Positions 23,217 through 40,586 of a stretch of DNA of 64,000 nt are shown one piece after another; the stretch's first letter is position 1; each line of letters opens with the position of its first letter. Position numbers and translations under genes: made by a program. This DNA comes from Pseudooceanicola marinus (GTDB lineage: Bacteria; Pseudomonadota; Alphaproteobacteria; Rhodobacterales; Rhodobacteraceae): assembly GCF_002786295.1 (NCBI RefSeq), contig NZ_PGTC01000022.1, positions 62,001 through 126,000 on the forward strand, read 5' to 3'. The notes below the pieces were generated by a model that searched no databases, was not told where the DNA came from, and was given only the letters and a program-made list of their open reading frames with translations.

Positions 23217-24446
23217 TCAGAGAAAGCGGACCGGTACCGCGAAGGGGCCGTATTCGGGCCAGGTGGTCATCGGCGTGGGGCCATCGGCCGCGAAGCCGTT
23301 GCAATACTTGGCCCAGCTTTCCAGCGCCGCCTCGATCATCAGCCGCCCGATCGGCTCCCCCGCGCAGCGGTGCGGCCCGCGCCCGAAGGCGATGGCGGGC
23401 TTGGGGTTGTCGCGGTCCAGGCGGAACTCATGCGGGCAGTCGAACACCGTCTCGTCACGGTTGGCCGAGGTGAAACACAGGGCGATCGGCTCGTCCTTGC
23501 AGATCTTTTCGCCGCCGATCTCCACGTCCCGCGTCGGCGTGCGGGCAAAGCCGCGATAGGGCGTATAGAGGCGCAGCAATTCCTCGGTGATCTGCGGTGT
23601 CTTCTCGGGGTGATCCTTCAGCAGCTGGAAGTGTTCCGGGTGGCGGCAGAAATGCACGGCGGCCGAGCCGAGGAAGGTCGTGGGGGCGATGATGCCCACC
23701 ACCAGCAGCTGCCGGATGGTGCCCAGGATGCCCTGGTCGGGCAGCGGTTCGCCGTCGAAATCCCGCGCTGCCAGCAGGGCGCTGGCCGGGTCCGCGCCGG
23801 GGTCGCGCGGGTTTTCCTTGCGGTCGTCGATGATCCCCTGGGCGATGTCGTACAGCACCAGGGAATGCTTCTGGATCGCGTCGAAATCCTTGGTTTGCAG
23901 GGCTAGGTTGAAGGCATGGCCGATGTTGCGGATGCGCAAGGCGTCCTCCTCCGAGATCATGAAGAACTCGGCCAGGACGTGGATCGGCAGGTGGAAGGAA
24001 AACTCGCCGCAGATGTCGGCGCGGCCCATGGCGGGGATGTCCTTGAACAGCCGGTCCGAAATCTCGCGCACCACCTTGTTCCAGTGCTGCATCCGTTCCC
24101 TGCGAAACAGCGGCGCGATGGCCTTGCGGTAGGGCGTGTGTTCCGGTGGATCCAGGTGCAGCGGCGGGCGGCGCCCGGTGGTGGCGACGCGGGGTACGAC
24201 GTTCTGCACGGCGGTGGAATAGAGGGTCGGGTCCGACATGGCGGTCTCGATGTCCTCGTAGCGGGTCAGCATCCAGAACCCCTCCATGTCGTTGGAGTGG
24301 GCGACGGGGCAGCGGGCGCGCAGATCGCTGAACAGCTCATGCGCGGCGTCGAAGTCCGATGGGTCTGTCTCGGCGTCGAAATCGTGGCGCTTGCTGAAGC
24401 GCTCCGTGCCTTCGGGGGCGCGGCGGTCGTGAATCACCTTGGTCAT
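23217..24446 (-). CDS. Cytochrome P450 monooxygenase
   Basis: This 409-aa soluble bacterial-type P450 has the haem-binding motif FGRGPHRCAG (Cys361 as thiolate ligand) and the K-helix E-x-x-R (residues 289-292). It also has the HTPYRK segment near residue 103. The I-helix reads GIIAPTT: the usual acidic residue before the conserved threonine is proline (P255), which is unusual for a monooxygenase. No ferredoxin or ferredoxin reductase is encoded next to it. The start at 24446 has GGAGG upstream; the longer frame would run through the operator. A perfect palindrome matching the GntR site lies 13-24 bp upstream of the start, linking it to the neighbouring ABC operon. The substrate is unknown. 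Confidence 0.9.
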   Translation of the reverse strand: MTKVIHDRRAPEGTERFSKRHDFDAETDPSDFDAAHELFSDLRARCPVAHSNDMEGFWMLTRYEDIETAMSDPTLYSTAVQNVVPRVATTGRRPPLHLDPPEHTPYRKAIAPLFRRERMQHWNKVVREISDRLFKDIPAMGRADICGEFSFHLPIHVLAEFFMISEEDALRIRNIGHAFNLALQTKDFDAIQKHSLVLYDIAQGIIDDRKENPRDPGADPASALLAARDFDGEPLPDQGILGTIRQLLVVGIIAPTTFLGSAAVHFCRHPEHFQLLKDHPEKTPQITEELLRLYTPYRGFARTPTRDVEIGGEKICKDEPIALCFTSANRDETVFDCPHEFRLDRDNPKPAIAFGRGPHRCAGEPIGRLMIEAALESWAKYCNGFAADGPTPMTTWPEYGPFAVPVRFL

Positions 24447-24458
24447 GGTTTCCTCCAT

Positions 24459-24470
24459 ATTGTCGACAAT
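24459..24470. promoter_or_regulatory. Perfect palindrome ATTGTCGACAAT before the P450 gene
   Basis: This exact 12-bp palindrome lies directly upstream of the P450 ribosome site. It matches the inverted repeat in the GntR/ABC divergent promoter (ATTGTCAACAAT) at 11 of 12 positions. It is a probable operator of the same GntR regulator. Confidence 0.7.
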
Positions 24471-24536
24471 GTTGCCGATATGCGTGCTGTGAGCAAGCAT
24501 CTTGCGGGCTTGCCGGGACGCGGGCCCACAAGCGCC

Positions 24537-24599: not shown

Positions 24600-25895
24600 C
24601 TAGAGCGACGGCAGCCAGAGCACCAGTACGGGCAGGGCGATCAGCAGCGTGACGTGGATCATGTCGGCCAGCACGAAGGGCGCCGTGCCACGGAAGATCG
24701 ACGACAGCGGGATGTCGCGCGCCACGCCCGACAGGACGTAGACGTTCATGCCTACGGGTGGCGTGATCAGGGCGATCTCGGTCATCCGCACCACCAGCAC
24801 CCCGAAAAGGACGGCGTCATAGCCCAGCCCGGTCACCAGCGGGAAGAACAGCGGCACCGTCAGGGTCATCATCGCCGAGGCGTCGAGGATCATCCCGAGG
24901 AAGAAATAGACCGCCAGGATCACCAGCAGGATCGCCAGCGGCGCCAGGTCGGCGCCGGCCACCCAGCCGGTCAGCTGCATCGGGATCGTTGTGACCGTGA
25001 TGAAGGCGTTGAACACCAGCGCCCCGAAGAGGATGCCGAAGATCATGCCGGTGGTCTTGAAGGTCTCGTAGACCGCATCGACCAGCCGTGCCCAGGTCAG
25101 CCGCTTCCGCACGGCGGCGATGATGAGCGCGCCGAAGGCTCCCATGGCGCCGGCCTCGGTCGGGGTGAAGAGGCCGCCGACGATCCCGCCCATGACGAAG
25201 AGGAACAGCACGATCACGTCGCCGCAGCCCTTGAACCCCTGCCAGCGGTCGGCCCAGCTGGCGCGTGGGCCGGCGGGGCCTGCCTTGGGGTTCACCCGGC
25301 ACTGGATCCAGATCACTGTCATGTACATCAGCGCCAGCAGGATGCCCGGGATGATCCCGGCGGCGAACATGTCGCCGATCGAGGTTTCGGTCAGGATGCC
25401 GTAGATGATAAACATCCCCGAGGGCGGGATCAGCGAGCCGATGGTGCCGCCCGCCGCGACCGAGCCCGAGGCCAGGGGCAGCGAATAGCCGTGCTTGCGC
25501 ATTTCCGGCAGGGCCACGAGGCCCATGGTGGCCGTGGTGGCCAGCGACGAGGCATTGACCGCGGCAAAGCCCGCCGAGGCGCCCACCGTGGCCATGGCCA
25601 GCCCGCCCCGGCGGTGGCCAAGGCAGCGGGCGGCGAAATCGTAGAGGTCCTTGCCGATGCCGGAGGCGAACAAGATATGCGCCATGAACAGGAACAGCGG
25701 CACTGTACCGATGGCATAGTTGGTGGCCAGGTCGAAGGTGATCACGCCGACCTTGATCAGAACAGCCTTCACCGTCAGCAGCGAGGCGAAGCCGATCACG
25801 CCCACCAGGCCCATGGCGAACCCGATGGGCATGCCGAAGGCCAGGAAGGTGAAGAGGACGGCGAGGCCGATCAGGCCCATTTCCACGGGGGTCAT
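24600..25895 (-). CDS. TRAP transporter large permease (DctM)
   Basis: This 431-aa protein has about twelve hydrophobic segments and the DctM hallmarks: an N-terminal helix with GMPIGFAMGLVG, GSLIPPSGMFIIYGI in the middle and TPPVGMNVYVLSG near the end. It imports a carboxylate using an ion gradient together with the DctQ and DctP subunits. Its start overlaps the DctQ stop by 4 bp. It is the last gene of the long operon that begins with the dehydratase-like genes, so the imported acid is probably the substrate of the CoA-transferases. Confidence 0.92.
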   Translation of the reverse strand: MTPVEMGLIGLAVLFTFLAFGMPIGFAMGLVGVIGFASLLTVKAVLIKVGVITFDLATNYAIGTVPLFLFMAHILFASGIGKDLYDFAARCLGHRRGGLAMATVGASAGFAAVNASSLATTATMGLVALPEMRKHGYSLPLASGSVAAGGTIGSLIPPSGMFIIYGILTETSIGDMFAAGIIPGILLALMYMTVIWIQCRVNPKAGPAGPRASWADRWQGFKGCGDVIVLFLFVMGGIVGGLFTPTEAGAMGAFGALIIAAVRKRLTWARLVDAVYETFKTTGMIFGILFGALVFNAFITVTTIPMQLTGWVAGADLAPLAILLVILAVYFFLGMILDASAMMTLTVPLFFPLVTGLGYDAVLFGVLVVRMTEIALITPPVGMNVYVLSGVARDIPLSSIFRGTAPFVLADMIHVTLLIALPVLVLWLPSL

Positions 25896-26413
25896 TCTGC
25901 ATGCTCCTGGGGCGTAGAGGGGCCGGTCCCATCTGTGCGGGGCGCGAACCGTTGCAGCGCGCGCAGCACCAGCACGGCAATCAGCAGGCCGGTGGCGCCG
26001 ACGATCAGCCAGCGGAAGGGGGCGACGGGGATGTCCATCAGCGGGGTCTTTTCCCCCTGGGCGCCATGGCGCTGCGCGTCATGGATGCCGGCCCAGAGCA
26101 CGAAGCCCCAGAAACCGCAGCCCAGAAGCAGCATCAGCCCCTCCAGCCAGTCCGCCAGCCGCGTCGGCAGGGTCTGGGTCAGCAGATCGACCTTCGTATG
26201 GGCCCCGTCCCAAGCGGCATAGGCCAGCGACAGGGTGATGGTGGGGATCAGCAGCAGTTCCGACAGCACGTAGGTGCCGGGAAAGGCGATGCCGATGGCG
26301 CGGAAGACCACCGTCACCACGATCAGCCCCATCAGGGCCAGCAGGGTCAGCACGCCCATCAGGGCGGAGGCGCGCACCAGCGCGCCGAGCCCGGTTTCAA
26401 GGATCTTCAACAT
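25892..26413 (-). CDS. TRAP transporter small permease (DctQ)
   Basis: This 173-aa protein has four hydrophobic segments and a W-x-G-A-H-T-K-V-D-like motif (WDGAHTKVD) typical of DctQ subunits. The start at 26413 is preceded by GGGAGG. It links DctP to DctM. A strong hairpin (26437-26462) lies between its start and the DctP stop. Confidence 0.88.
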   Translation of the reverse strand: MLKILETGLGALVRASALMGVLTLLALMGLIVVTVVFRAIGIAFPGTYVLSELLLIPTITLSLAYAAWDGAHTKVDLLTQTLPTRLADWLEGLMLLLGCGFWGFVLWAGIHDAQRHGAQGEKTPLMDIPVAPFRWLIVGATGLLIAVLVLRALQRFAPRTDGTGPSTPQEHAE

Positions 26414-26436
26414 GGGTCCTCCCACCCGTCAGGGGA

Positions 26437-26470: not shown

Positions 26471-27472
26471 TCATTCCTCGTGGGCCGCGCGGATCCGCTC
26501 CAGCACCTCGGTGCCCGGCTTGCCCATGGCGTCCAGCTCCTCGGCAACCTCGGCAAGCGCCGGGGCGAAGGCCTGGGAATACTCCGCGACCACTTCGGGG
26601 GCGACGCTGTTGAATTCCACGCCTTCCTCTGCACCGTAGGCGCGCCCCTCGGCTTCGGCTTCCATCGACAGCTCCAACGTGCGCTGGCTCAGCCAGTCGG
26701 TATTGGCGTCAAAGATCGCCTGGATGTCCTCCGGCAGGCTCTCCCAGGTGTCCATGTTCACCGCCCGCGACGGATAGGCGCCGCGCGAATGGGGCAGTTC
26801 GGAGTAGTAGCTGACCACCTCGGCGAAGCTGAGGGATTTGAGCGCCTCGTAGGGGGCGATCACCCCGTCCAGCACGCCCTTTTCCAGCGAAGGGTAGGTC
26901 TCCGTCATCGGCATGGTCACGCCCTCGGCGCCGAAGGCCGCCAGCGGGCCGATGAAGTCGACGGCGGAGCGGATGCGCAGCCCCTTCAGGTCGTCCAGCG
27001 TCTCCAGCGGGGCGTTGCGCAGCAGCAGGTGCATCGGCGTGCCGACGTTGTAGCCCACTACGTGCACGCCCAGTTCTTGCTGGAAGACGGGGTAGTCCTC
27101 CACCAGGTCCATGTAGACGCCCAGTACCTTCTGCGGATCGATGTAGCCGTAGAACATGCCGGGCACCAAGCGGTTCATGTCATAGCCCGACCGCGCGTAG
27201 ATCGGCGCGATATAGGAGACATCGGCGATGCCGGCGGCCAGTTCGTCCACCCCTTCGCGGCTGGTGATCAGGGCCCGGCCCCAGTAGGGGGTGATCGCGA
27301 CCCGCCCGTCGGATTGCTCCTCGATCCGGGCGATCCATTCCGCGTCGGCCTGGCCGTAGGGGTGGGCCGTCGTATAGGGCGAGGCATAAGTCAGATTGAA
27401 ATCCGCCGCGACAGCGGCGGTGGCAGAGACGCCGAAGGCGATCGCTGCGACGGTCATCATTACATGTTTCAT
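26471..27472 (-). CDS. TRAP transporter substrate-binding protein (DctP family)
   Basis: This 333-aa periplasmic protein has a signal peptide (MKHVMMTVAAIAFGVSATAAVAAD, cleaved near residue 23). The mature part has the DctP/TAXI-like order. An arginine in the LKGLRIRSAVDF segment corresponds to the family's carboxylate-binding arginine. The start at 27472 is preferred over an upstream ATG at 27493 because only it leaves a clean signal peptide after GGGAGG. It lies 70 bp after the CoA-transferase gene in the same operon. Confidence 0.9.
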   Translation of the reverse strand: MKHVMMTVAAIAFGVSATAAVAADFNLTYASPYTTAHPYGQADAEWIARIEEQSDGRVAITPYWGRALITSREGVDELAAGIADVSYIAPIYARSGYDMNRLVPGMFYGYIDPQKVLGVYMDLVEDYPVFQQELGVHVVGYNVGTPMHLLLRNAPLETLDDLKGLRIRSAVDFIGPLAAFGAEGVTMPMTETYPSLEKGVLDGVIAPYEALKSLSFAEVVSYYSELPHSRGAYPSRAVNMDTWESLPEDIQAIFDANTDWLSQRTLELSMEAEAEGRAYGAEEGVEFNSVAPEVVAEYSQAFAPALAEVAEELDAMGKPGTEVLERIRAAHEE

Positions 27473-27542
27473 GGTTCTCCTCCCTGGAAACACGATTGCG
27501 TAGATTGCCGGAGTTGTCTCCCCGGTCGGTGGCGCCGGGGCG

Positions 27543-28712
27543 TCAGCCGCTCAGCGCGGTGATCTCCTCCTGTTCGAGCCCAAGGCGTTCGAGGATCTCG
27601 GCATTGTCGTGGCCCGGCAGGGCCGCGGGCCGGGGCGCGGGTTCCCCGCCCAGGCGGACGGGCGGGCCGAGTTGCGGCTGGCGGGTGCCGCCGGGCAGGG
27701 TCACGTCGACGACCGCGCCGCGGGTGCGGAACTGCTCCTCTGCCAGCGCTTCGGTCACATCGTTCACGGGTGCGAACTGGGTGCCGGCCTCTGCGAATAG
27801 CGCCAGCCAGTGGGCGCGGGGTTTCTCCGCGAACAGCGCCTGCAGCGTTTCGCGGATCTCGTCGCGGCGGCTGGCGTCCAGTTGCAGCGGGATGAAATCG
27901 GGGCGTCCCATCACCTCGCAGAACGTCGCCCAGTAGCGGGGTTCCATGTCGGTGGTGCAGAGCCAGCGCCCGTCGGCGCAGCGCCAGAGGCCGAGGTCGG
28001 CCCGGCGGCTGCCGCGCGGGGGCGCGTCGGCGGGTGTTTCGTAGCGCGACAGAAGGTTCGCGGTCAGCGTCATGGCGCATTCGGTCATCGCCACGTCCAC
28101 ATGGCGCCCCAGGCCGGTGGCGCGGGCGGACATGACGGCGGCCAGGGTTGCAAAGGCCGCGTGGCTGCCGGTCAGCACGTCGGCGGCGGGCGTGCCGGGC
28201 AGGCCGGGCGCCTCCGGGTCCTCGCCGGTGCGCGACATCACCCCCGAGAGGGCCAGCGCCACCGGGTCATGCCCGGGCTTGTCGCGCAGCGGGCCGGTCT
28301 GACCGCAAAGGGTCAGGCTGACGTAGACCAGCGCGGGGTTCAGCGCGCTGAGATCCTCATAGCTCAGGCCGAGGCCCGCCAGAACGCCGGGGCGGTAGTC
28401 CTCGACCACCACGTCCACCCGCGCCACCAGCCGTTTCAGCACCGCCTGCGCGTCGCTGTCGCCAAGGTCTAGCCGCAGGGATTTCTTGCCTCGCGCCAGC
28501 ATGTCGCGACCGCGCTGGCGGGCCTGGTCCTCGGCATCCATCTTGTCCCAGCCAAAGACCTTGGCCTGTTTCGCCAGCTCGCGCGGGTTTTCCACCCGGA
28601 TCACCTCGGCCCCCTGATCGGCCAGCAACCAGGTGCAGTAGGGGCCGGGCAGCAGGCGCGAGAAATCCAGCACGCGCAGACCGTCGAGAGAGGGGGGCAG
28701 CGCGGCCGTCAT
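27543..28712 (-). CDS. Class III (CaiB/BaiF/Frc) CoA-transferase
   Basis: This 389-aa enzyme moves CoA between carboxylic acids through an aspartyl-CoA anhydride intermediate. It has the N-terminal LRVLDFSRLLPGPYCTWLLAD motif, the VEDYRPGVLAGLGL segment near residue 103, and the catalytic aspartate in PAADVLTG (D178). The start overlaps the stop of the neighbouring CoA-transferase by 4 bp. Since that neighbour lacks the aspartate, these two may form one heteromeric enzyme, with this protein as the active subunit. The acid and CoA donor are unknown. Confidence 0.9.
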   Translation of the reverse strand: MTAALPPSLDGLRVLDFSRLLPGPYCTWLLADQGAEVIRVENPRELAKQAKVFGWDKMDAEDQARQRGRDMLARGKKSLRLDLGDSDAQAVLKRLVARVDVVVEDYRPGVLAGLGLSYEDLSALNPALVYVSLTLCGQTGPLRDKPGHDPVALALSGVMSRTGEDPEAPGLPGTPAADVLTGSHAAFATLAAVMSARATGLGRHVDVAMTECAMTLTANLLSRYETPADAPPRGSRRADLGLWRCADGRWLCTTDMEPRYWATFCEVMGRPDFIPLQLDASRRDEIRETLQALFAEKPRAHWLALFAEAGTQFAPVNDVTEALAEEQFRTRGAVVDVTLPGGTRQPQLGPPVRLGGEPAPRPAALPGHDNAEILERLGLEQEEITALSG

Positions 28713-29746
28713 GCGCTTTGCCCTTCGGGATGCACCGCGAACAGCGGGCCACGCGTCAGCTTGCTCTGCGGCGTGTCCACGAAGATGCCGCGCGCCTGCA
28801 TCTGCGGGCTGTCGGGCACCTCGGCCAGCTTGGTGATCGGCGACAGGCCCCAGCCCAGCTTCAACGACCAGTCGCCCAGCTCGGCCCGGGTGTGGCGGGC
28901 GAAGAAGGCGCCGACGATGTCCTGCCAGCGGTCGATAATCTGCTGATCCGTGTCGGCGACCAGGATGTCTTCCCAGACGATCCCGGCCAGTTCCCCGGCG
29001 CAGCCTTCCTCGTCCATGACCCGGACCACGGCGCGCATCATGCCGGGGTTGTCGATCATCGACCAGGTGACGTAGCCATCGGCGCAGGGCCAGACCTGGC
29101 GCACGCCGGAGGCACCGCGCACCAGCTTGTTGCCGACACGCCGCCCGATGCGGCCCGTCCATTCATACATCACCGCCTCGCGGTAATTGGCCAGCGTCAC
29201 CGATTGCAGCGCCGAGACCGGGATGCGCTGGCCCCGGCCGGTCCGGGCCCGAGCGCGCAGGCCCATCAGGGCGGCGGTGGCCACCTGGATGCCGGTCAGG
29301 GCATAGGCCTGTTCGCCGGGCAGGCGCAGGGGCGGATCCTCGGCGGTGCCGATCACATGCATCAACCCGGATTGCGCCATCAGCGTCAGGTCGGTGGCGG
29401 GACGGGGCGGCTGCCCTTCGGGCCAGGCGGTGGCGACGACGTGGACCAGCTGCGGATGGCTGGCGGCCAGGGCGTCCACCTCGGGGCGGGGGTTGCGGCG
29501 GCGGTCGTCCAGCAGCACATCGGCACCGGCAAGCAGCTCGGCCAGGGGGATGGATGATGCGGGGGAGGACCGCATCCCCCCGTGCCAGGCCGCCTGCCGG
29601 ATCTCGGTCACCTCGCCGGTGTCGGCCAGGGTCACATCGGCACCCAGCCGGGCCAGCATCTCGCCGCCGAAGTCGACCAGCCGGTCAGCCAGGACGACGA
29701 CCTTGAGGCCGGACAGCAGGGCCGTCGCTTGCGTCTGATCGCTCAT
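28709..29746 (-). CDS. CaiB/BaiF-family CoA-transferase-like protein lacking the catalytic aspartate
   Basis: This 345-aa protein has the family fold (LSGLKVVVLADRLVDFGGEMLARLGADV at the start, a Rossmann-like N-terminal part, and RTGRGQRIPVSALQS after the active-site region). It is 40-50 residues shorter than its three paralogues. The segment that should read D-x-x-T-G reads Y-A-L-T-G, placing tyrosine (Y148) where the catalytic aspartate belongs. The VENFRPG-like segment is replaced by LLDDRRRNPRP. It overlaps both neighbouring CoA-transferase genes by 4 bp. A structural or regulatory partner of the next gene product is more likely than an independent enzyme. Confidence 0.82.
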   Translation of the reverse strand: MSDQTQATALLSGLKVVVLADRLVDFGGEMLARLGADVTLADTGEVTEIRQAAWHGGMRSSPASSIPLAELLAGADVLLDDRRRNPRPEVDALAASHPQLVHVVATAWPEGQPPRPATDLTLMAQSGLMHVIGTAEDPPLRLPGEQAYALTGIQVATAALMGLRARARTGRGQRIPVSALQSVTLANYREAVMYEWTGRIGRRVGNKLVRGASGVRQVWPCADGYVTWSMIDNPGMMRAVVRVMDEEGCAGELAGIVWEDILVADTDQQIIDRWQDIVGAFFARHTRAELGDWSLKLGWGLSPITKLAEVPDSPQMQARGIFVDTPQSKLTRGPLFAVHPEGQSA

Positions 29747-30930
29747 GCCAGGGCTCCTTCCTTGGTCAGGCGGGCAATGTCGTCTGCGCTCAACCCGATC
29801 TCGGCGAAGACCTCGGCGTTGTGCTGGCCGAGGCAGGGGGAGGCGGTGATCGCGACGGGCGTGTCGGGCAGGTCATAGGGCGGCGCAGGCATGCGTGCGG
29901 GGCCGATGACCGGGTGATCGGTGGGGGCGAAGTGGCCTGCGGCCTGCAACGCGGTGCTTTCGGCCACTCCCTTGCCGTCCAGCACCAGGGAGGCGGGCAC
30001 GCCGGCTGCGGCAAGCGCCTGTTCCAGCGTCGCGCCGTCGCGGGCGGCGGTCAGGTCGGACAGAGCCTGGCTGAGCACCGGTGCGGCGGCACGGCGCGCA
30101 GCGGCATCGGGATGGCGGGTCGCCAGATCGCCGGCGCCCAGTACTGCGCAAAGGGCGCGCCACTGGCTGTCATCCTCGCAGGCGATGGCGATCCAGGCGT
30201 CCTCGCCCGCACAGGGGAAGACCCCGTGCGGCGCCATGACGGGATCATCGTTGGCGGGCTTCTCCTCGGGCATACCGGCGAAGAGGTCACCGGCCACATG
30301 CACCATGGATTCGATCTGGCTGACATCGACGTGGCAGCCCTGGCCCGTGCGGTCGCGGGCCTCCAGCGCCGAGAGGATCGCCACGGTCAGGAACATCGGC
30401 GCCACCACGTCGCCATAGGCCAAGGGGGGCATATGCGGCTCGGTGCCCGGCCAGCCGGTCATGTCCGCATGGCCGGACTGCGCGGCGGCGATATTGCCGT
30501 AGCCGCGAAAGCCTGCCATCGGCCCGGTGCGCCCGGCGACCGAGACGGAGGCCAGGATGATCCCCGGGCGGATCTGTTGCAGCGTCTCGTAGCCCAGGCC
30601 GATGCGATCCATGTAGCCGGGACCGAAGTTCTCGACCACCACATCGGCCCAGGCCACCAGCCGCTTGGCCACCTCGACACCCGCCGGATCGGAGAGGTTG
30701 ATGGTGACGCTTTTCTTCGAGGTATTGGTCTGGGCGAAGAAGAGCGAAGCATCGTGGTTCTTCGACTGTCCCTTGGCGAAGGGGGGAGAGCGGCGGCCCA
30801 GATCGAGGCGCCGCGCGCTTTCTATCTTCACCACCGTGGCGCCATTGTCGGCCAGGTCCTTGGTGGCGCGCGGCCCCGCGCCGACCCAGCTGAAATCCGC
30901 GATCTTCAGACCGTGAAGGGCTCCGGTCAT
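29743..30930 (-). CDS. Class III (CaiB/BaiF/Frc) CoA-transferase
   Basis: This 395-aa enzyme shows LKIADFSWVGAGPRATKDLADNG at the N-terminus, VVENFGPGYMDRIGLGYE near residue 98 and the catalytic aspartate in LAYGD (D174), so it should be active. It overlaps the dehydratase-like gene upstream and the aspartate-less paralogue downstream by 4 bp each. This tight coupling suggests that it makes or uses the CoA thioester handled by the dehydratase-like pair. Confidence 0.9.
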   Translation of the reverse strand: MTGALHGLKIADFSWVGAGPRATKDLADNGATVVKIESARRLDLGRRSPPFAKGQSKNHDASLFFAQTNTSKKSVTINLSDPAGVEVAKRLVAWADVVVENFGPGYMDRIGLGYETLQQIRPGIILASVSVAGRTGPMAGFRGYGNIAAAQSGHADMTGWPGTEPHMPPLAYGDVVAPMFLTVAILSALEARDRTGQGCHVDVSQIESMVHVAGDLFAGMPEEKPANDDPVMAPHGVFPCAGEDAWIAIACEDDSQWRALCAVLGAGDLATRHPDAAARRAAAPVLSQALSDLTAARDGATLEQALAAAGVPASLVLDGKGVAESTALQAAGHFAPTDHPVIGPARMPAPPYDLPDTPVAITASPCLGQHNAEVFAEIGLSADDIARLTKEGALA

Positions 30931-32177
30931 GTTCTTTCCTCCAACTTGTCGAGGGCCTCTGTCACCTGCGCCACGACCGCCTCGCGGTCCCAGTCGCGCG
31001 GGTCGACCATGTCCGACCAGACCTCGATCACCGTGACGCCCGCTGCCTCCAGCGCCTGTTTGACGAAGAGAGAGCCGTAGCCCGAGAAGCGGTCATGTTC
31101 GGGGATCAGCAGCAGCGCCACGTCGATGCGATAGCGTTTGGCCTGTTCGACCATCCAGGCGTTAACCCAGGGCGGCTGGTGCAGCTGTTCGTTCATCGCC
31201 GAGACCCGCGCCGCGAGCGCGCGCAGCGGGTCGCCGTGATCTTCGCGGATATAGCCGTCGGCGGCGAAGGGCAGGTACATGGACCAGGCGAAGGTGGCGC
31301 CGTGGCTCTCCTCGAAGGCCTTGTAGAAAGAGGTGTCGAACCACAGCCCGGCACCGATCCACATCATGCGGATCCTCTCGTTCGGGCAGGCGGCGTGACC
31401 GTCCCGGATCCGCTGGGCCACCTCGTCGCGGAAGGCCTCCACATGCTGCAGGGCCCAGTCCGATCCGCGATGCCATTGCGGGATCATCACATTGGGCATC
31501 TGTTCCCCGATGCCCACGGGCACCTTGGGCGCCTCGGCGATCATTTGGCTGACCTCGTCCAGGATCTTCTCCTGCCGGTCGATGCGATCCATGTAGGCCG
31601 CGAAAGCGTCGCGATCGAAGGTGCGGCCGGTCATCTTTTCGACCGCGCCGATCAGCTCTTCGATCTCGGCCACCATCAGGTCCAGCCGGGCGGTTCCGTA
31701 GAAATCTTCCCATTTGCTGCGCGCCTGCACCCACCAGTCGGGGGCGGGGTCCGGAACGGCGGGGGCCGAAAGCAGGTGCAGCGGCGCGCCGGTCTCGTCG
31801 GACCACAGCTGGAAGATGCGGGCATGTTCGTCGGAGCTGGCCCGGGCGCAGAGCAGGGCGGGCGCGGGCAGGCCACCCCAGGGCTGACGCGCGGCGTCGC
31901 CCTCCAGCAGGGCCATCAGCGGCAGCGAGGAATACTTCGGCAGATGTCGGTGAAAGCCCGCGTCCTCCATCCAGTCGAAGTAGAAAGGCGCCTGCTGTTT
32001 CGCGGCGATGACGGCGGACCACCACTGGTTGGTGACCATGGGCACGTCCATGAAATGGAAGATCTCATGCGGCGTGTCGGCGTTGACGAAGGCAAAGGGC
32101 GCGCCCTGGGTGATCTCGGCCCGGAGCCCCTTGATCCAGTCGCGCTGATAGCTGGTGGCGGCGGCGGCCATGGTCAT
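30927..32177 (-). CDS. 2-hydroxyacyl-CoA dehydratase family protein, cysteine-poor subunit
   Basis: This 416-aa protein matches the 2-hydroxyglutaryl-CoA dehydratase component D / benzoyl-CoA reductase BcrBC family. The N-terminal MDVPMVTNQWWSAVIAAKQ segment, the LLCARASSDEHARIFQLW segment and the C-terminal domain with MVEQAKRYRIDVALL all follow the family order. Classical members hold an oxygen-sensitive [4Fe-4S] cluster with three cysteines per subunit. Here only two cysteines exist in the whole protein (C110 and C264), and the C-terminal ligand position reads PEHDRFSGYG. It overlaps the second subunit gene by 4 bp. The electron activator ATPase (HgdC/BcrA-type) is absent. Function is uncertain. 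Confidence 0.75.
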   Translation of the reverse strand: MTMAAAATSYQRDWIKGLRAEITQGAPFAFVNADTPHEIFHFMDVPMVTNQWWSAVIAAKQQAPFYFDWMEDAGFHRHLPKYSSLPLMALLEGDAARQPWGGLPAPALLCARASSDEHARIFQLWSDETGAPLHLLSAPAVPDPAPDWWVQARSKWEDFYGTARLDLMVAEIEELIGAVEKMTGRTFDRDAFAAYMDRIDRQEKILDEVSQMIAEAPKVPVGIGEQMPNVMIPQWHRGSDWALQHVEAFRDEVAQRIRDGHAACPNERIRMMWIGAGLWFDTSFYKAFEESHGATFAWSMYLPFAADGYIREDHGDPLRALAARVSAMNEQLHQPPWVNAWMVEQAKRYRIDVALLLIPEHDRFSGYGSLFVKQALEAAGVTVIEVWSDMVDPRDWDREAVVAQVTEALDKLEERT

Positions 32178-33250
32178 GCGAGGGCCTCCTCGATACGGCT
32201 GTGGGCGGTGTCGATCCAGGCGGCATCGGGGCGGAAGGGGCGCAGGGGGAGCCGGGCGAAGCGCGTGCCCTGGCCTGCCAGGTCGCGGGCGAGGGTCGGC
32301 AGGTCCCAGCCGAAGCTGTCGTCGTTGTGATCGGGCGAGGCGATGACCAGATCGCAGCTCGCCAGCCCGGCGCGCAGGGCCTCGCCATAGCGGCGGGGCG
32401 GGTTGGCGCGAATGTGCAGCGGCACCTCGGCCACGTCGCGCAGCAGGGTCTCTGACTGGCCCAGGTGCTGGCCGGGCCAGGGATCGCCATAGGGGGTCAG
32501 GTCGGCGGTGACGCGACCGAAGTGGCGGGCCAGGTCATGCAGCAGCGGCAGGTCACAGGCGGTGCCGATCAGCCCGATGCGCAGGCCGGTCTGCGGCTCC
32601 TCCACCGTCTCGACGGTGTCGAGCAGCGCGGCATGGGCCTCGGCCTCCAGCCAGCGACCGGCGTTGCGCAGGGTGAAGAGGTCGGGGTGCCCCTCCAGCC
32701 GGGTCAGCGCCTGCGCCCGGGCCGCCTCGCGGCTCAGGGCTTCGGTCAGAGTGTCGGGTGACAGGGCCGCGTCGGTCGCTTCCGTCAGGGCTGCATCCAG
32801 CCGTTCCGCCTCGGTGGCGTTGAACCGGGCAATGGCCTCGCTCTGCCCATGCAGCAGGTTCCACAGGTGCAGGCGCGGGCCTGTCGGGGGGACATGGCCC
32901 AGGCGGCGCAACTCGGTGGCGTATTGGTAGGCGGTCAGCCCGGCCACGTCGTCGCGAGCAAAGACGATCATCGCGTAGCTGTCGAAGGCACCGGCGGCGA
33001 AGCGATGCAGGAAGCGCGCGGTGAAATCGTCGAGGAAGCCCTCGGCCACGCGGGTCACCGCGGCGACCTGCGGCCCGCTCGCGGCATCTGCCAGCGGCGG
33101 CGCTTTCACCTCGACGGCACGCGCGCCGGCGGCCCGGATCAGCGCCTCGGGCAGGCCGTCGCCGAAGGTGCCGACCAGGGGCGCCCCCGATGGCGTGACG
33201 TGATCCGCCCGGTCGCGAAAGACGCGCATGAGCTCTTCCATCGCTGGCAC
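32174..33250 (-). CDS. 2-hydroxyacyl-CoA dehydratase family protein, second cysteine-poor subunit
   Basis: This 358-aa protein shows the family layout: GTFGDGLPEALIRAAGARAVEV near residue 27 (classical members have Cys in the P-E-x-x-I-x-A-A-G region), the FARDDVAGLTAYQYATELRRLG segment, and a C-terminal CDLVIASPDHNDDSFGWDLP segment in which the usual C-terminal cysteine is replaced by aspartate. It has only two cysteines (C232, C299). It is the first gene of the long operon. Together with the next gene it should form the heterodimer typical of the family. The loss of cluster ligands in both subunits suggests different chemistry. An in-frame alternative start (MEELMRVF, 9 bp further in) is also possible. 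Confidence 0.72.
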   Translation of the reverse strand: MPAMEELMRVFRDRADHVTPSGAPLVGTFGDGLPEALIRAAGARAVEVKAPPLADAASGPQVAAVTRVAEGFLDDFTARFLHRFAAGAFDSYAMIVFARDDVAGLTAYQYATELRRLGHVPPTGPRLHLWNLLHGQSEAIARFNATEAERLDAALTEATDAALSPDTLTEALSREAARAQALTRLEGHPDLFTLRNAGRWLEAEAHAALLDTVETVEEPQTGLRIGLIGTACDLPLLHDLARHFGRVTADLTPYGDPWPGQHLGQSETLLRDVAEVPLHIRANPPRRYGEALRAGLASCDLVIASPDHNDDSFGWDLPTLARDLAGQGTRFARLPLRPFRPDAAWIDTAHSRIEEALA

Positions 33251-33314: not shown

Positions 33315-33329
33315 GTTTACTTTGGAAAC
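33315..33329. promoter_or_regulatory. MarR-type operator, leftward promoter
   Basis: GTTTACTTTGGAAAC has inverted GTTT/AAAC arms and lies in the gap between the dehydratase-like operon and the MarR gene. The reverse complement of the site at 33927-33941 matches it at 12 of 15 positions, and at 16 of 21 when three flanking bases on each side are included. It is a probable MarR binding site controlling the operon and perhaps the MarR gene itself. Confidence 0.6.
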
Positions 33330-33408
33330 TGTTTGCCCCCTTTGTCAACTCCCGAAATTGACAGGATCGCCTCCTGCGGCTAGCCAATCTGAAAGCCGGG
33401 GGTTGGTC

Positions 33409-33873
33409 ATGAGTGAAGAAAAGTCCGAAAAAACAGACGGATCGGAGGTGTCTCTGGGGCACCTTGCGACGGATATTTCCTTTGTCACCCGGGTGTTGCG
33501 GGCGCAGCTGCTGGAACAGACGGGCGATTTCTTCGAGAAACACGGCGTCGCCTCGGGGCAGGTCGCGCTGCTGAACCTGATCGCGCTGAACCCCGGTGTC
33601 TCGCAGAAAGAGCTGGCCGAGGCGGTGGTGCTGAAGAAATCCGCCCTGACCAAGGCCATCAACGAGCTGGAGCGCAACGGGCTGATCGAGCGACGCAAGT
33701 CCGGCGGCGACCAGCGGTACAATGCCCTGCACCTGAGCGAGCAGGGCCTGGCCCGCGTGGCCGCGATGCGCACTGACATGCTGGGCCTTCAGGACACGAT
33801 CCTGGGCGTGCTGAGCGACGCCGAACGGGCACAGCTTTTCGACATGATCTGGCGGGTGATCCGCAGCCGCTGA
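33409..33873 (+). CDS. MarR-family transcriptional regulator
   Basis: This 154-aa protein has the MarR winged helix-turn-helix (SQKELAEAVVLKKSALTKAINELERNG, followed by the wing IERRKSGGDQRYNALHLSEQG) between two dimerisation helices. The start MSEEKSEK at 33409 is chosen because the longer frame runs through the promoter region. It lies between two divergent catabolic units, and matching inverted repeats at both promoters suggest that it represses both and is released by an acid or acyl-CoA ligand, as is common for MarR regulators of aromatic and acyl-CoA pathways. Confidence 0.9.
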   Translation: MSEEKSEKTDGSEVSLGHLATDISFVTRVLRAQLLEQTGDFFEKHGVASGQVALLNLIALNPGVSQKELAEAVVLKKSALTKAINELERNGLIERRKSGGDQRYNALHLSEQGLARVAAMRTDMLGLQDTILGVLSDAERAQLFDMIWRVIRSR

Positions 33874-33941: not shown

Positions 33942-33966
33942 TAATTTGGAGGAGAGGGAGAGGACC

Positions 33967-35130
33967 ATGGCGCAGCCGCTCGCGGGGGTCAGAATCGCCG
34001 ATTTCAGTCATGTGATCGCGGGTCCCCTAGCCACGCAGTTCCTGTGCCTGCTGGGGGCGGAGGTCATCAAGATCGAACCGCCGGCGGGGGATGCCATGCG
34101 GTACTACACCCGGGCGGAGGCGCGCCGGGGCATGGCGGAACCCTTCGTCGGGGCCAATGCCGGCAAGAAATCCGTGGTGCTGGACCTGAAAAGCGAGGAG
34201 GGCCGCGAGGCCGCCCGCGCCATCGTCGCCAGCGCTGACATCCTGGTGGAGAACTTCCGCCCCGGCGTCGCCGCCCGCCTGGGGCTGGGGGAGGCCGACT
34301 TGCGCGCCGCGCATCCGGGGCTGATCTATTGCTCCGTCTCGGGCTTCGGCCAGGCCGGGCCGATGCGGGATTACCCGGCGATCGATCAGGTGATCCAGTC
34401 CATGTCTGGGCTGATGTACCTCTCCGGCCAGGAGGGCGACCCGGCACAGCGCGTGGGCTTTCCCATCGTCGACACCTACACGGCCCTGCTGACGGCCTTT
34501 GCCGTTCTGGCCGCCTATACGCAGCGGCAGGCGGATCCGCAGGGGCAGGGACAGGTGGTCGATGTCTCGATGCTCGATGCGACGATGGTGTTGATGTCCT
34601 CGGTCATCAGTCCCTATCTGCTGACCGGCACCGAACCGGTTCGGGCCGGCAATCGCGGCTTTTCGGGCGCACCCACGGCCGACACCTTCGACACCGCCGA
34701 GGGCGAGATCACGATAGGCGCCGTGCAGCAGGTGCAGGTGGAACGGCTGTTCCGCGCCATGGATCTGGCCGACCTGCTGGAGGACGCCCGTTTCGCCACC
34801 CCGCCCGCGCGGCTGGCCCATGACGCCGCGTTGCAGGCGATCCTGCGCCCCCGTTTCGCCACCCGCAGCGCCAGCGACTGGGAAGATGTATTGGCCGGGG
34901 CCGGCGTGCCCGCCGGCAAGGTGCGTCCCCTGGCCGAGGCGATGGAGATGCCGCAGATCCAGGGACGTGATCTGTTCCTCGACGTGCCGGACCCGGTCAC
35001 CGGCGACAGCGCGCAGATCCTCAACGCGGGCTTCCGCTTTGCCCATGATGGCCCCGGCGTCAGCGCCCCCGCGCCGGGTCTCGGGCAACATACCGAAGAG
35101 ATCTTGGCGGCCCTGCGCAGCCGCGCCTGA
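33967..35130 (+). CDS. Class III (CaiB/BaiF/Frc) CoA-transferase
   Basis: This 387-aa enzyme has VRIADFSHVIAGPLATQFLCLLGAEV at the N-terminus, VENFRPGVAARLGLGEADL near residue 94, and the catalytic aspartate in PIVD at residue 169, the same number as in formyl-CoA transferase. It starts after a purine-rich GGAGAGGGAGAGG site. It is the only gene of the rightward unit and is controlled by the site that overlaps its promoter. It probably works in the same pathway as the three CoA-transferases on the other side of the MarR gene. Confidence 0.9.
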   Translation: MAQPLAGVRIADFSHVIAGPLATQFLCLLGAEVIKIEPPAGDAMRYYTRAEARRGMAEPFVGANAGKKSVVLDLKSEEGREAARAIVASADILVENFRPGVAARLGLGEADLRAAHPGLIYCSVSGFGQAGPMRDYPAIDQVIQSMSGLMYLSGQEGDPAQRVGFPIVDTYTALLTAFAVLAAYTQRQADPQGQGQVVDVSMLDATMVLMSSVISPYLLTGTEPVRAGNRGFSGAPTADTFDTAEGEITIGAVQQVQVERLFRAMDLADLLEDARFATPPARLAHDAALQAILRPRFATRSASDWEDVLAGAGVPAGKVRPLAEAMEMPQIQGRDLFLDVPDPVTGDSAQILNAGFRFAHDGPGVSAPAPGLGQHTEEILAALRSRA

Positions 35131-35349: not shown

Positions 35350-35361
35350 GAAGTGAGCGCC

Positions 35362-36129
35362 ATGGACCGCAAGGAACAGATTCTGCAGCTGGCGCGCCGC
35401 GAGGGCCGCGTGATGGTCGACGGGCTGGCCGAGGCGTTTGGCGTCTCCGCCCATACCATTCGCCGCGATATCAACGCGCTTTGCGAAGAGGCCAAGCTGC
35501 GGCGCCTGCACGGCGGGGCGGAGTATATCGAGGGCCAGGCGAACCTGCCCTACCACGCCCGCGCGGTGCTGAACTTCGACGAGAAGTCGGCGATTGCGCG
35601 CGAGGTGGCCCGTGTCATCCCCGACGGCGCGACGCTGTTCATCTCCATCGGGACGACGCCCGCCATTGTCGCGGGCGCCCTGGCCGAGAAGCAGGCGCTG
35701 ACCGTCATCACCAATAACCTGAACGCGGCCCTGGCGCTGTCGGAAAACCCCGGCAACCGGATCATCCTGCCGGGCGGAGAGATGCGCCTGCCGGATCGCG
35801 ACATCCTGGGCCCCGAGGCGGTGGAGCTGTTCCGCACCTACCGGGCGGATTTCGGCATCTATGGCGTTGGCGGCATCGACCATGACGGCAGTCTGCTGGA
35901 TTTCAACGCCGCCGAGGTGCAGATGCGCGAACAGATGCGGACCAATTCCCGCCGCTCGATCCTTGTCGCCGACCGGACGAAATTCGGCCGCCGCGCCGCG
36001 GCCGTGGGCGGGCAATTGAACGAGGCGGGCATGGTCGTGCTGGACCGCGCGCCGGGGGCTGACTGGCAGCCGCTGTTGGACGGCTACCCGGGCAAGCTGG
36101 TGCTGGCGATGGAGGGGGTTCATGTCTGA
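35362..36129 (+). CDS. DeoR-family regulator, GlpR-like
   Basis: This 255-aa protein has the DeoR helix-turn-helix (VMVDGLAEAFGVSAHTIRRDIN, then LRRLHGGA) and a sugar-phosphate sensor domain with ISIGTTPA, ITNNLNAA, GGIDHDGSLLDFN and VADRTKFGR. These match E. coli GlpR closely, pointing to glycerol-3-phosphate as effector. An in-frame GTG at 35353 is an alternative start. The stop overlaps the ABC ATPase gene by 8 bp, so regulator and transporter are co-transcribed. The glpK and glpD genes lie 17-20 kb away at 52.9-56.1 kb and may also belong to its regulon. Confidence 0.85.
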   Translation: MDRKEQILQLARREGRVMVDGLAEAFGVSAHTIRRDINALCEEAKLRRLHGGAEYIEGQANLPYHARAVLNFDEKSAIAREVARVIPDGATLFISIGTTPAIVAGALAEKQALTVITNNLNAALALSENPGNRIILPGGEMRLPDRDILGPEAVELFRTYRADFGIYGVGGIDHDGSLLDFNAAEVQMREQMRTNSRRSILVADRTKFGRRAAAVGGQLNEAGMVVLDRAPGADWQPLLDGYPGKLVLAMEGVHV

Positions 36130-37219
36130 TCCCTTCGTCGAGCTGCGCGAGATCCGTCGTCAATGGGACGGCAAGGGCGGGGTGCGCGGCGTCTCGCTTT
36201 CGGTGCCGCGCGGCGCCTTCGTGTCGATCCTGGGCCCCTCGGGCTGCGGCAAGTCCACGCTGCTGCGCCTGCTGGCCGGGTTGGAGGTGCCGCAATCGGG
36301 GCAAATCCTGATCGGTGGGCAGGACGTGACCCATGCCGCGCCCGCCGCGCGCGGCCTGTCGATGGTGTTTCAGAGCTACGCGCTTTTCCCCCACCTCTCG
36401 GTGCGCGAAAACATCCTGTTTGGCATGAAGGTCCGCCGCGCCAGCCGGGCGGCCCAGGCCGAGAAGCTGGCCGAGGCGGTGGCGATGACCGGCCTTGAAG
36501 GGCTGGAGGATCGCAAGCCCGGCGCGCTTTCTGGCGGCCAGCGGCAACGCGTGGCGCTGGCCCGTGCCGTGGTGGCGGGGCATCCCCTCTGCCTGATGGA
36601 CGAGCCACTGTCGAACCTCGACGCCAAGCTGCGCCATTCCGTGCGCCGCGACATCAAGACCCTGCAACGGCGCCTGGGGCTGACCGTGGTCTATGTCACC
36701 CATGACCAGTCCGAGGCGATGTCGCTGTCGGACCACGTGGTGCTGATGAAGGACGGCGCGGTGCAGCAGCAGGGCGCCCCGGAAGACCTCTACACCCGCC
36801 CTGCAACACCCTTCGTGGCCGAGTTCATCGGTGACCCGCCCATGGCCCTGGTCGAAGGCGCAGCCCTGGGGCAAGGCGCCGCGCAGATCGGCATCCGGGT
36901 CGAGAAGATCGAGCGGGCGCATGTCGATGACGCCGATCTGGTGGCCCAGGTGGAGGCCTGCGAGTTTCTGGGCGGCGAGACCCGGGTTTTGCTGGGCCAT
37001 CCCCGGGCGCGCGGTCTTGGCCTAATCCTGACCGGGCGGCGCGAGCTGGCGGAGGGCACGGCCATGGGCCTGGCCCTGCCGGACGAACACCGGGTCCTTT
37101 TCCCCGCCCCGGGCGGACAAAAGGACCCGCAGCAGAATTACGGGGCGACCGATCGCCAAACCGCACCCCGTGATGGCCGAAAGGCCCCATCCCAGCAGAC
37201 CGAAGAGGTATCCCGATGA
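36122..37219 (+). CDS. ABC transporter ATP-binding protein, UgpC/MalK-type
   Basis: This 365-aa ATPase has Walker [10 protein letters not shown] (about residues 38-46), [39 protein letters not shown] and VTHDQSEAMSLSDH, followed by a short TOBE-type regulatory part. The last 35-40 residues (after VLFPAPGG) are polar, low in conserved features and run into what looks like former intergenic DNA. The stop overlaps the start of the binding-protein gene by 4 bp. Placing the ATPase before the binding protein is unusual for Ugp systems. Confidence 0.88.
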   Translation: MSDPFVELREIRRQWDGKGGVRGVSLSVPRGAFVSILGPSGCGKSTLLRLLAGLEVPQSGQILIGGQDVTHAAPAARGLSMVFQSYALFPHLSVRENILFGMKVRRASRAAQAEKLAEAVAMTGLEGLEDRKPGALSGGQRQRVALARAVVAGHPLCLMDEPLSNLDAKLRHSVRRDIKTLQRRLGLTVVYVTHDQSEAMSLSDHVVLMKDGAVQQQGAPEDLYTRPATPFVAEFIGDPPMALVEGAALGQGAAQIGIRVEKIERAHVDDADLVAQVEACEFLGGETRVLLGHPRARGLGLILTGRRELAEGTAMGLALPDEHRVLFPAPGGQKDPQQNYGATDRQTAPRDGRKAPSQQTEEVSR

Positions 37220-38472
37220 TCCGCCAAGTTTCTGCCGCGGCCATGCTCGCCGCCGGCGCCCTTGCCGTCAACCCGGCCAGCGCCACCGAACTGACCATGT
37301 ACTACCCGATCGCCGTGGGCGGCCCGCTGACCAAGGTGGTCGATGGCATGGTCGAGGAATTCGAGGCCGCGAACCCCGACATCACCGTCAACGCCATCTA
37401 CGCCGGCAACTACGACGACACCCGCATCAAGGCCCTGGCGGCGCTGAACGCGGGCGAGCCCGCCCAGCTGGCCGTCATGTTCTCCATTGACGCCTACGAC
37501 CTGATCGAACAGGACATGATCGTACCCTTCGACGACGTTCTGGGCGAGGGCGGCCAGGCGTGGATCGACAGCTTCTACCCCGGGCTGATGGCCAACGGCC
37601 AGGTCGAGGGCAAGACCTGGGGCATCCCGTTCCAGCGCTCCACCATCGTGGCCTATTACAACAAGGACATGTTCGCCGAGGCGGGCCTGGACCCCGAGCA
37701 CGCCCCGGAAACCTGGGACGAGATGGTCGAGATGGGCCGCGCCCTGACCAATGACGACCACTACGGTCTGATGATCCCCTCGACCGGCTACCCCTACTGG
37801 ATGTTCCAGGCCCTGGCCGTGCAGAACGGGATCGAGCTGATGTCGGGCGACGGTTTGGAAACCTATTTCGACGCCCCCGAGGCCGTCGAGGCGCTGGAGT
37901 TCTGGAAGTCGCTCTCAGTCGACGAGGGCATCATGCCCGAGGGCACCGTCGAATGGGGCACCCTGCGTCAGGCCTTCCTCGAAGGGCAGACCGCGATGAT
38001 GTGGCATTCCACTGGCAACCTGACCGCGGTGAAGAACGCGGCCGAGTTCGACTTCGGCGTCGCCATGCTGCCCGCCAATGTGCAACCCGGCTCGCCCACG
38101 GGCGGCGGCAACTTCTACCTCTTCAAGGACAGCACCGATGAGGAAAAGGCCGCCGCGCTGAAGCTGATCCAGTTCATGACCCAGCCCGAGAAGGCGGCCG
38201 AGTGGTCCATCGCCACCGGCTACATGGGCGTCTCCCCTGCCGCCTATGAGACCGAGGCCCTGCAAGCCTATGCCGAGGAGTTCCCTCCGGCGCTGGTCGC
38301 CCGGGATCAGCTGAAAGTGGCCGTGGCCGAGTTTTCGACCTTTGAAACCGCTCGCGTCCGCGAAGGGCTGAACAACGCCATCCAGTCCGCTCTGACCGGC
38401 GAGAAGTCGGCCGAGGAGGCCCTGGGCGAGGCGCAATCCGCCGCCGAGCGCCTGTTGCGGGCCTACCAGTAA
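37216..38472 (+). CDS. ABC transporter substrate-binding protein, UgpB-like
   Basis: This 418-aa periplasmic protein has a signal peptide ending near AVNPASATE (about residue 23). The mature part follows the UgpB pattern: LTMYYPIAVGGPL, FQRSTIVAYYNKDMF near residue 143 and SPTGGGNFYLFKDS near residue 293. These are close to the segments that form the glycerol-3-phosphate pocket in UgpB. With a GlpR-like regulator upstream, glycerol-3-phosphate or a glycerophosphodiester is the likely ligand, though related sugars cannot be excluded. A GAAGAGG ribosome site lies within the end of the ATPase gene. Confidence 0.85.
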   Translation: MIRQVSAAAMLAAGALAVNPASATELTMYYPIAVGGPLTKVVDGMVEEFEAANPDITVNAIYAGNYDDTRIKALAALNAGEPAQLAVMFSIDAYDLIEQDMIVPFDDVLGEGGQAWIDSFYPGLMANGQVEGKTWGIPFQRSTIVAYYNKDMFAEAGLDPEHAPETWDEMVEMGRALTNDDHYGLMIPSTGYPYWMFQALAVQNGIELMSGDGLETYFDAPEAVEALEFWKSLSVDEGIMPEGTVEWGTLRQAFLEGQTAMMWHSTGNLTAVKNAAEFDFGVAMLPANVQPGSPTGGGNFYLFKDSTDEEKAAALKLIQFMTQPEKAAEWSIATGYMGVSPAAYETEALQAYAEEFPPALVARDQLKVAVAEFSTFETARVREGLNNAIQSALTGEKSAEEALGEAQSAAERLLRAYQ

Positions 38473-38480
38473 TCTTTCCC

Positions 38481-38534
38481 CCGGGGGCCTGCGGGCCCCC
38501 GGCTGTACTCCCCTCGGGGGCCTACGGGCCCCCG
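38481..38534 (+). promoter_or_regulatory. Two tandem hairpins between binding-protein and permease genes
   Basis: Two nearly identical stem-loops follow the binding-protein gene: a 9-bp stem at 38481-38502 (loop TGCG) and an 8-bp stem at 38515-38534 (loop TACG). Neither is followed by a T run. They probably stabilise the binding-protein message and limit read-through into the permease genes. Confidence 0.65.
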
Positions 38535-38583
38535 GATCCCGCCCATGCCTGCATCCCCGGGCGCGGGTCAGAAAAGGCTCAGC

Positions 38584-40283: not shown

Positions 40284-40286
40284 GGC

Positions 40287-40586
40287 CTAGTCCTGCGTCA
40301 GGTGTCGGCGCACCAGCACCAGGTGCAGGATATGGGCGGCGGTGAAGGCGCCGAGGATCAGCGCGATCGCCGCGGGTCCGGCATCGGCCAGCAGGTGGAA
40401 CAGAAGCGCGAAACCGCCGGCCAGCAGCGGCGTCAGGCACAGGGCCAGCCCGCGGGGCGCTGACCAGGTCGGGCGGCCATCCAGCCCCCATTGCATGGGA
40501 AGGTGACTGGCACGGGGCAGCTGCAGGTAGGCCCCGGCCGACAGCCCGATCAGGGCGAGTGACAGAAATCCGCAGAGATAGATCAT
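40287..40586 (-). CDS. Small membrane protein with DUF1648-like motif
   Basis: This 99-aa protein has three hydrophobic segments (IYLCGFLSLALIGLSAGAYL, LALCLTPLLAGGFALLFHLL, AIALILGAFTAAHILHLVLV). Between the first two it carries LPMQWGLDGRPTWSAPR, which resembles the DUF1648 motif (a P-x-H-W-x-x-x-G-x-x-D-x-x-x-x-K-like loop). The start at 40586 is chosen because the longer frame begins in the spacer. It is transcribed alone toward the ABC operon. No function is assigned. Confidence 0.6.
   Translation of the reverse strand: MIYLCGFLSLALIGLSAGAYLQLPRASHLPMQWGLDGRPTWSAPRGLALCLTPLLAGGFALLFHLLADAGPAAIALILGAFTAAHILHLVLVRRHLTQD

Follow-up and report, generated by a model that had tools for sequence, protein, structure and literature searches.

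In a 64,000-nucleotide stretch of contig NZ_PGTC01000022.1 (positions 62,001 to 126,000; the whole stretch is hereafter called the window), two adjacent genes, A and B, head a chain that runs from A through B to coenzyme A (CoA)-transferases 1, 2 and 3, four ATGA overlaps joining the five genes. The genes of a tripartite ATP-independent periplasmic (TRAP) transporter (DctP, DctQ, DctM) and then a cytochrome P450 gene follow (Table 1). A first-pass annotation of the window had placed both proteins in the HgdAB/BcrBC-type family and proposed that they have lost the ligands of its iron-sulfur cluster. The coordinates, strand and lengths that it gave for both genes were correct, and the tight overlap with CoA-transferase genes that it pointed to is seen in the ATGA junctions.

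Family membership was examined with sequence profiles and predicted structures. B matches the Pfam HGD-D profile with E=7.6e-39; A alone gives E=0.021, under the family cut-off. A profile built on B homologues retrieves MbdO (5.2e-23), BzdO (7.2e-21) and HadB (7.3e-15), and one built on A homologues retrieves BzdN (9.4e-22) and HadC (1.5e-19). AlphaFold monomer models, computed from the rows of the family alignments, have a predicted local distance difference test score of 92.7 for B and 93.9 for A. In Foldseek searches the B model matched BzdO with a template modelling (TM) score of 0.82 and HadB with 0.86 by target length, while the A model matched HadC (E=1.8e-14, TM 0.73) and BzdN (TM 0.75); for A and for B, all 20 matches at E <=0.001 belong to the benzoyl-CoA reductase/2-hydroxyacyl-CoA dehydratase (BCR/HAD) family. 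Thus, by profile and predicted fold, A and B are both members of this family, in agreement with the first-pass assignment. The closest named relative found was Pseudooceanicola marinus, whose B is 97% identical, and a search of viral contigs gave no match.

A natural A-B fusion of 795 amino acids was found in another genome (L167, positions 6291-8678, G529). It has no ligand cysteines, and its D362 region is missing. Since A and B are fused in this protein, it supports their working as a heterodimer, which we infer from gene adjacency and this one fusion.

Three cysteines, Cys95, Cys128 and Cys380, hold the cluster of BzdO, while the double-cubane cluster of BzdN has the ligands Cys36/73/100/263/293/327 (PMC11971306). 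Alignment of B to BzdO, MbdO and HadB puts P80, S115 and D362 (the D of PEHDRF) in the classical ligand columns. Alignment of A to BzdN and HadC puts D74, D101 and D310 (the first D of NDD in PDHNDD) in ligand columns, and the N-terminal Cys36 of BzdN aligns with G30; BzdN ligand columns beyond D74/D101/D310 were read in the window protein only. In total A has two cysteines (232 and 299) and B has two (110 and 264), none at a ligand column. The earlier counts of two cysteines per protein, C110/C264 and C232/C299, therefore apply to B and A, respectively, and the PEHDRF and PDHNDD segments indeed carry aspartate at ligand columns. His131 of BzdO, which stands beside the cluster water (PMC11971306), aligns with H118 of B.

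A displacement of the ligands was also considered. No shifted ligand cysteine was seen in alignments to the five solved relatives BzdO, MbdO, HadB, BzdN and HadC and in 86 rows of relatives, so the ligands are absent rather than moved. C110 of B lies five residues ahead of column 115 and matches the first C of the HadB CC pair; because column 115 is also occupied in HadB, by the cysteine of NICNQ, C110 is not a shifted ligand. Outside the cluster-less group, C110 is retained in some rows only. C264 was rejected as a replacement ligand, its position being variable across the family.

To see how far this state extends, columns 80, 83, 115, 117 and 362 of B were read in 86 rows: that of the window, five from plasmid records and the best 80 among 352 relatives found in genome contigs, a choice that makes the tallies favour close relatives. 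Two states predominate. In 42 of the 86 rows, the window included, the site is cluster-less, with P/A at 80, S/A/L at 83, S/A/G at 115, D/E/Y at 117 and D at 362. Forty rows have a CxxC + CxC four-cysteine site (C80, C83, C115, C117) with N/T/S/H at 362, and one further row is the canonical outgroup L028. The classical three cysteines are found together with C83, and without C117, in L069 and L071, both from metagenome-assembled genomes of Deltaproteobacteria; L067 has a cysteine at all five columns. Counts over 84 rows, used below, omit L028 and the frame-broken L068, which stays in the 86-row counts. The latter locus (L020/L068, Oceanicola sp. S124) has B split across two frames and a second partial copy at L023, by assembly error or decay.

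The set was then widened to 92 rows: the 86 minus L068 and L028, plus two paralogues and a further six rows, taken from other genomes. Thirteen regions had come from the family and phylum samples. Five of them (L160-L164) repeat the genomes of L056, L060, L032, L038 and L036; of the eight new regions, L156-L159, L166 and the B half of L167 were entered, and L165 (cluster-less) and L168 (canonical cysteines) were left out. Among the 92 rows, 48 lack every ligand, 41 have the four-cysteine site and 3 have the classical three. No row has a partial set of the four cysteines, besides the C117-less L069 and L071. The genomes of Aquamicrobium L040 and Nitratireductor L049 each encode another cluster-less pair, diverged and of the type seen in Rhizobium L027 (L149, L150).

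In the first tree, which included L028, the 43 cluster-less rows form one starred clade (99/91). In a second, quicker tree, built without L028 and with the ligand columns removed, 47 of 48 cluster-less rows lie on one side of a branch with a support of 86, unstarred; L068 was left out of both trees. The 48th row, the fusion L167, falls outside the group on a long branch and may represent a separate loss of ligands. Cluster-less rows come from Rhodobacterales and Rhizobiales, and four-cysteine rows from Sphingomonadales, Acidobacteriota, Bacteroidota and others. Two results thus go beyond the first-pass annotation: relatives have a four-cysteine state, and the loss of ligands is clade-wide. The distribution of states suggests that the cluster-less clade arose through the four-cysteine state, or beside it, from an open three-cysteine ancestor.

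The partner subunit was examined in the same loci, A not being found in L069 and L107. None of 83 family rows has a cysteine at the D74/D101/D310 columns, each of which holds one in the outgroup L028; column 310 is D in 70 rows and E in 13. Total cysteines per row range from one to fifteen, some open reading frames being extended upstream. Near-invariant positions of A are E70 (81/84), R99 and R281 (80/84 each) and W315 (84/84). The cluster site appears to have been lost in A earlier than in B.

Enzymes of this family known for iron-sulfur chemistry also use an ATP-driven activator, and the first-pass annotation had noted that none is encoded in the window. This holds for the whole source genome (4.5 Mb, 99.66% complete), which has no TIGR00241 activator. 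The search was carried out on this genome, on 39 genomes and then on 48 genomes or records (including two canonical controls and one plasmid record), with a cut-off of 125.4 bits and with genomes grouped by the site state of B; many are metagenome-assembled genomes, and completeness is unstated for the majority of those identified from a locus. Activator matches above the cut-off were obtained in 1 of 44 cluster-less, 5 of 38 four-cysteine and 2 of 3 three-cysteine genomes. Matches under the cut-off were of 20-23 bits in four cluster-less genomes and of 114 bits in the four-cysteine L082. The only cluster-less genome with an activator is that of Mesobacterium pallidum (L056). Its activator, on contig C4, is flanked by two HGD-D pairs (L175, 1879-11799) in whose BzdO-like members columns 80, 115 and 362 are each occupied by cysteine, and the cluster-less pair lies on contig C6. 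This genome was therefore rejected as a counter-example of an activator beside a close homologue and provides a control instead.

Both genes are under purifying selection. The ratio of nonsynonymous to synonymous substitution rates (dN/dS) of B is 0.059 against the nearest relative and 0.232 against the next; for A the values are 0.245 and 0.476. In BzdO the thioester oxygen of the substrate is hydrogen-bonded by Tyr97, Tyr298 and Gln274 (PMC11971306). The two tyrosines correspond by alignment to Y82 and Y301 of B and are kept in 84/84 and 92/92 rows. At least 97% conservation is found at 80 of the 416 positions of B, across several phyla. E330 and H333 are present in 91 of 92 rows, PWGGLP, R112 and R164 in 83 or 84 of 84, and the charged residues R112, R164, R237, E267, E289, R324, E330 and H333 in 84 of 84. 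As E330, H333, PWGGLP, R112 and R164 are alike in open, four-cysteine and cluster-less rows, these rows apparently share a function that is independent of the cluster, which suggests that this function had already left the cluster.

Table 1. Genes of the A-B locus and its surroundings in the window
Feature	Position	Strand	Details
Subunit A, relative of BzdN/HadC without ligand cysteines	32174..33250	(-)	358 aa, GTG start
Subunit B, cluster-less relative of BzdO/MbdO/HadB	30927..32177	(-)	416 aa
CoA-transferase 1, family III, 395 aa	29743..30930	(-)	CoA_transf_3 2.2e-96
CoA-transferase 2, family III, 345 aa	28709..29746	(-)	CoA_transf_3 8.8e-36
CoA-transferase 3, family III, 389 aa from ATG at 28712	27543..28712	(-)	CoA_transf_3 1.1e-91 on longer open reading frame 27543-29162
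TRAP solute-binding protein DctP	26471..27493	(-)	DctP profile 5.6e-33
TRAP small permease DctQ	25892..26425	(-)	DctQ profile 9e-18
TRAP large permease DctM	24600..25895	(-)	DctM profile 1.7e-91
Cytochrome P450, same strand, downstream	23217..24500	(-)	p450 3.9e-17; best solved relative CYP125MRCA 9.1e-44
MarR-type regulator, divergent	33322..33873	(+)	MarR_2 6.7e-14
Fourth family III CoA-transferase, next to MarR regulator	33946..35130	(+)	CoA_transf_3 6.3e-117

Four genes of the window meet the CoA_transf_3 profile, with E values from 8.8e-36 to 6.3e-117. The closest solved relative of CoA-transferase 1 is BbsF (9fn0_B, 2.6e-65), and that of CoA-transferase 2 is BbsE (9fn0_A, 7.9e-17). In family III CoA-transferases the Asp of the GxGxxxDV motif is catalytic. 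CoA-transferase 2 has P in its place, the other three transferases of the window keeping the Asp, and is perhaps the non-catalytic subunit of a heteromer. We infer an aerobic host from its nearest named relative (Pseudooceanicola) and from the P450 gene in the operon. Beside the operon, at 35353-41994, lies a cluster of genes for a sugar-type ATP-binding cassette transporter, which also includes those for a DeoR regulator and a family 1 glycosyl hydrolase.

Neighbours of B were counted within 8 kb in all loci, contig-end loci included, the genes being selected with a codon model. All 42/42 cluster-less loci have a family III CoA-transferase, as do 36/40 four-cysteine and 3/3 three-cysteine loci, so homologues without the cysteines do keep such neighbours. 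TRAP genes are present in 37/42, 22/40 and 2/3 of these loci, respectively. A, sought anywhere in the locus, was found on the same strand in 42/42 cluster-less loci, and in 39/40 four-cysteine and 2/3 three-cysteine loci. Of the 42 cluster-less loci, 31 have a MarR gene at most 8 kb away. Many cluster-less loci share the layout of a MarR regulator with an adjoining CoA-transferase, and the operon structure is retained over Rhodobacterales and Rhizobiales. In annotated Novosphingobium and Croceicoccus records a CoA-transferase gene of about 700 amino acids stands between A and B. A PGA_cap (CapA-like) protein is encoded within 8 kb in 1/42 cluster-less, 31/40 four-cysteine and 3/3 three-cysteine loci (L024-L026 and many of L067-L108); its match to the model of the lasso-peptide epimerase MslH is far under the cut-off. 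Other neighbours vary by lineage and include esterases, CocE/NonD hydrolases, Rieske and P450 oxygenases, as well as the PGA_cap proteins; owing to this variation we name no substrate.

Occurrence of the system is patchy. Matches were found in 9 of 147 close relatives (counting the genome itself and one canonical match, L022), in 13 of 295 family genomes (counting the genome itself) and in 5 of 398 genomes of the phylum sample (counting the genome itself and one canonical match).

Radical dehydration or ring reduction requires the cluster and a low-potential electron (PMC11971306); the reaction of A-B must therefore differ. The first-pass annotation had left two options, non-radical acyl-CoA chemistry and a complex that binds CoA thioesters. 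We favour the first. A-B would be a BCR/HAD-fold heterodimer that has given up its metal centre and acts as a cluster-free, activator-free acyl-CoA enzyme by acid/base or oxyanion chemistry, a reading to which we give about an even chance. The TRAP importer would take up an organic acid, and the BbsEF-like CoA-transferases would attach CoA to it. The acyl-CoA would then occupy the former substrate channel of B, where Tyr82 and Tyr301 would hold the thioester oxygen. Carboxylates such as D362, together with the subfamily residues E330 and H333, could stand in for the [4Fe-4S]-OH2, and B would carry out non-redox, oxygen-tolerant chemistry at or beside the thioester. The retained oxyanion pocket and the carboxylates point to the enolate or oxyanion type (lyase, hydratase, isomerase or acyl transfer). 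More broadly, a radical metalloenzyme family may have given rise, by way of an open cluster, a closed four-cysteine site and then nothing, to a metal-free branch whose oxygen-stable, activator-free acyl-CoA enzyme catalyses a new, non-redox step of an undescribed catabolic pathway that depends on CoA-transferases; we consider the chances for and against this scenario evenly balanced.

Several observations weigh against the reading as an acyl-CoA enzyme. The third residue of the BzdO thioester site, Gln274, aligns with A276 of B and is not kept. Glu65 of BzdO aligns with N50 or Q51 (a one-column ambiguity) and Ser44 with A33, the latter by way of HadB Ser37, which we take to be its equivalent. 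Part of the known catalytic apparatus thus also appears to be gone. The proposed catalytic residues are not universal either: of the 48 cluster-less rows, 47 have D362, 41 have D/E117 and 36 have H118. The clade of Rhizobium L027, six rows with a support of 100, deviates at positions 117 and 118, and the fusion L167, besides its missing D362 region, has D and R in place of E330 and H333. The enrichment of conserved positions in the CoA-contacting segments of B is modest (18 of 80 conserved positions, compared to 55 of 416 overall; p=0.0075). In A of three four-cysteine loci (L088, L089 and L098) a cysteine stands at 311, beside the D310 column. As for the stepwise route, the tree is silent on passage through the four-cysteine state, and the three states may have parted from a common ancestor.

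The main rival explanation makes A-B a scaffold or CoA-thioester carrier without catalytic activity, which would organise the CoA-transferases and hand on acyl-CoA. Much of the evidence would equally be expected from such a binding role. In its favour, the ligands of the BzdO site are lost and its acid/base residues appear to be lost as well, the four ATGA overlaps tie A, B and the transferases together, and the large transferase of Novosphingobium and Croceicoccus is encoded between A and B. However, the conservation of B, with its charged residues and 80 near-invariant positions in several phyla, exceeds what a scaffold usually needs, and the thioester-binding tyrosines are retained. We regard the scaffold as a tentative second choice, and on the whole a rather unlikely one.

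The old cluster site might instead bind a single metal (Fe, Zn or Mn) through D362, D/E117 and H118. In a set of 41 cluster-less rows D362 is present in 41, D/E117 in 40 and H118 in 35, whereas 43 cysteine-bearing rows mostly have N/T/S at 362, C at 117 and I/V/M at 118. The wider set of 48 rows speaks against such a site, since D/E117 and H118 are each missing from several of them, with the L027-like clade departing at both positions, and the fusion lacks D362. We consider a single-metal site unlikely.

A radical 2-hydroxyacyl-CoA dehydratase whose cluster sits on other residues and whose activator is unrecognised or borrowed is more doubtful still. The combination of a CoA-transferase with an HGD-D pair does resemble hadABC/fldABC, where the neighbouring gene likewise encodes a family III CoA-transferase; yet each subunit has only two cysteines, all off the ligand columns and in B either variable (C264) or confined to the cluster-less group and some other rows (C110), and the genome has no TIGR00241 activator. 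Least credible of all is a decaying pseudogene pair, for which the lost ligands and one frame-broken row in 86 (L068) might speak, but which is contradicted by the low dN/dS, by A on the same strand in 42/42 cluster-less loci and by an operon kept over Rhodobacterales and Rhizobiales.

If the metal-free acyl-CoA enzyme is the right reading, A-B would offer a clean case of a metalloenzyme turned metal-free, with fold, partner and thioester tyrosines kept and with possible intermediates in living bacteria. It would also provide a direct prediction for an unexplained operon of marine and soil bacteria, and annotations as 'dehydratase' or 'benzoyl-CoA reductase' in such genomes may misstate its function.

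Among the literature matches listed, no title or start of an abstract concerned the cluster-less or the four-cysteine branch, subscription papers being outside the scope of the search. The known systems closest to the locus can be compared part by part. The benzylsuccinate CoA-transferase BbsEF (PDB 9fn0) resembles CoA-transferases 1 and 2 in being encoded by two adjacent family III genes, but the genes scanned included none that could be recognised as part of a benzylsuccinate pathway. The dehydratases HadBC, HgdAB and FldBC (PDB 3o3m) share the fold, as tested against HadBC. Unlike the window pair, which has neither, they require a cluster and an activator for radical dehydration. Both subunits are homologous to those of the class I benzoyl-CoA reductases BzdNO and MbdNO (PDB 8s02, 9g87), and B keeps the thioester tyrosines of BzdO; in contrast to these enzymes, B lacks the [4Fe-4S] ligands, A lacks the double-cubane ligands, the genome lacks the activator, and Glu65 and Ser44 are not kept by alignment. 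BCR, HAD, DCCP and TudS are treated in PMC11971306 as branches of one family, all with clusters. In TudS and DCCP the function of the same fold changes along with the cluster, and both keep Fe-S, whereas the window pair has no ligands for it. A-B is thus a member of the fold family, yet it lacks the cofactor ligands and the activator that the labels imply, so it should not be named a dehydratase or a benzoyl-CoA reductase.

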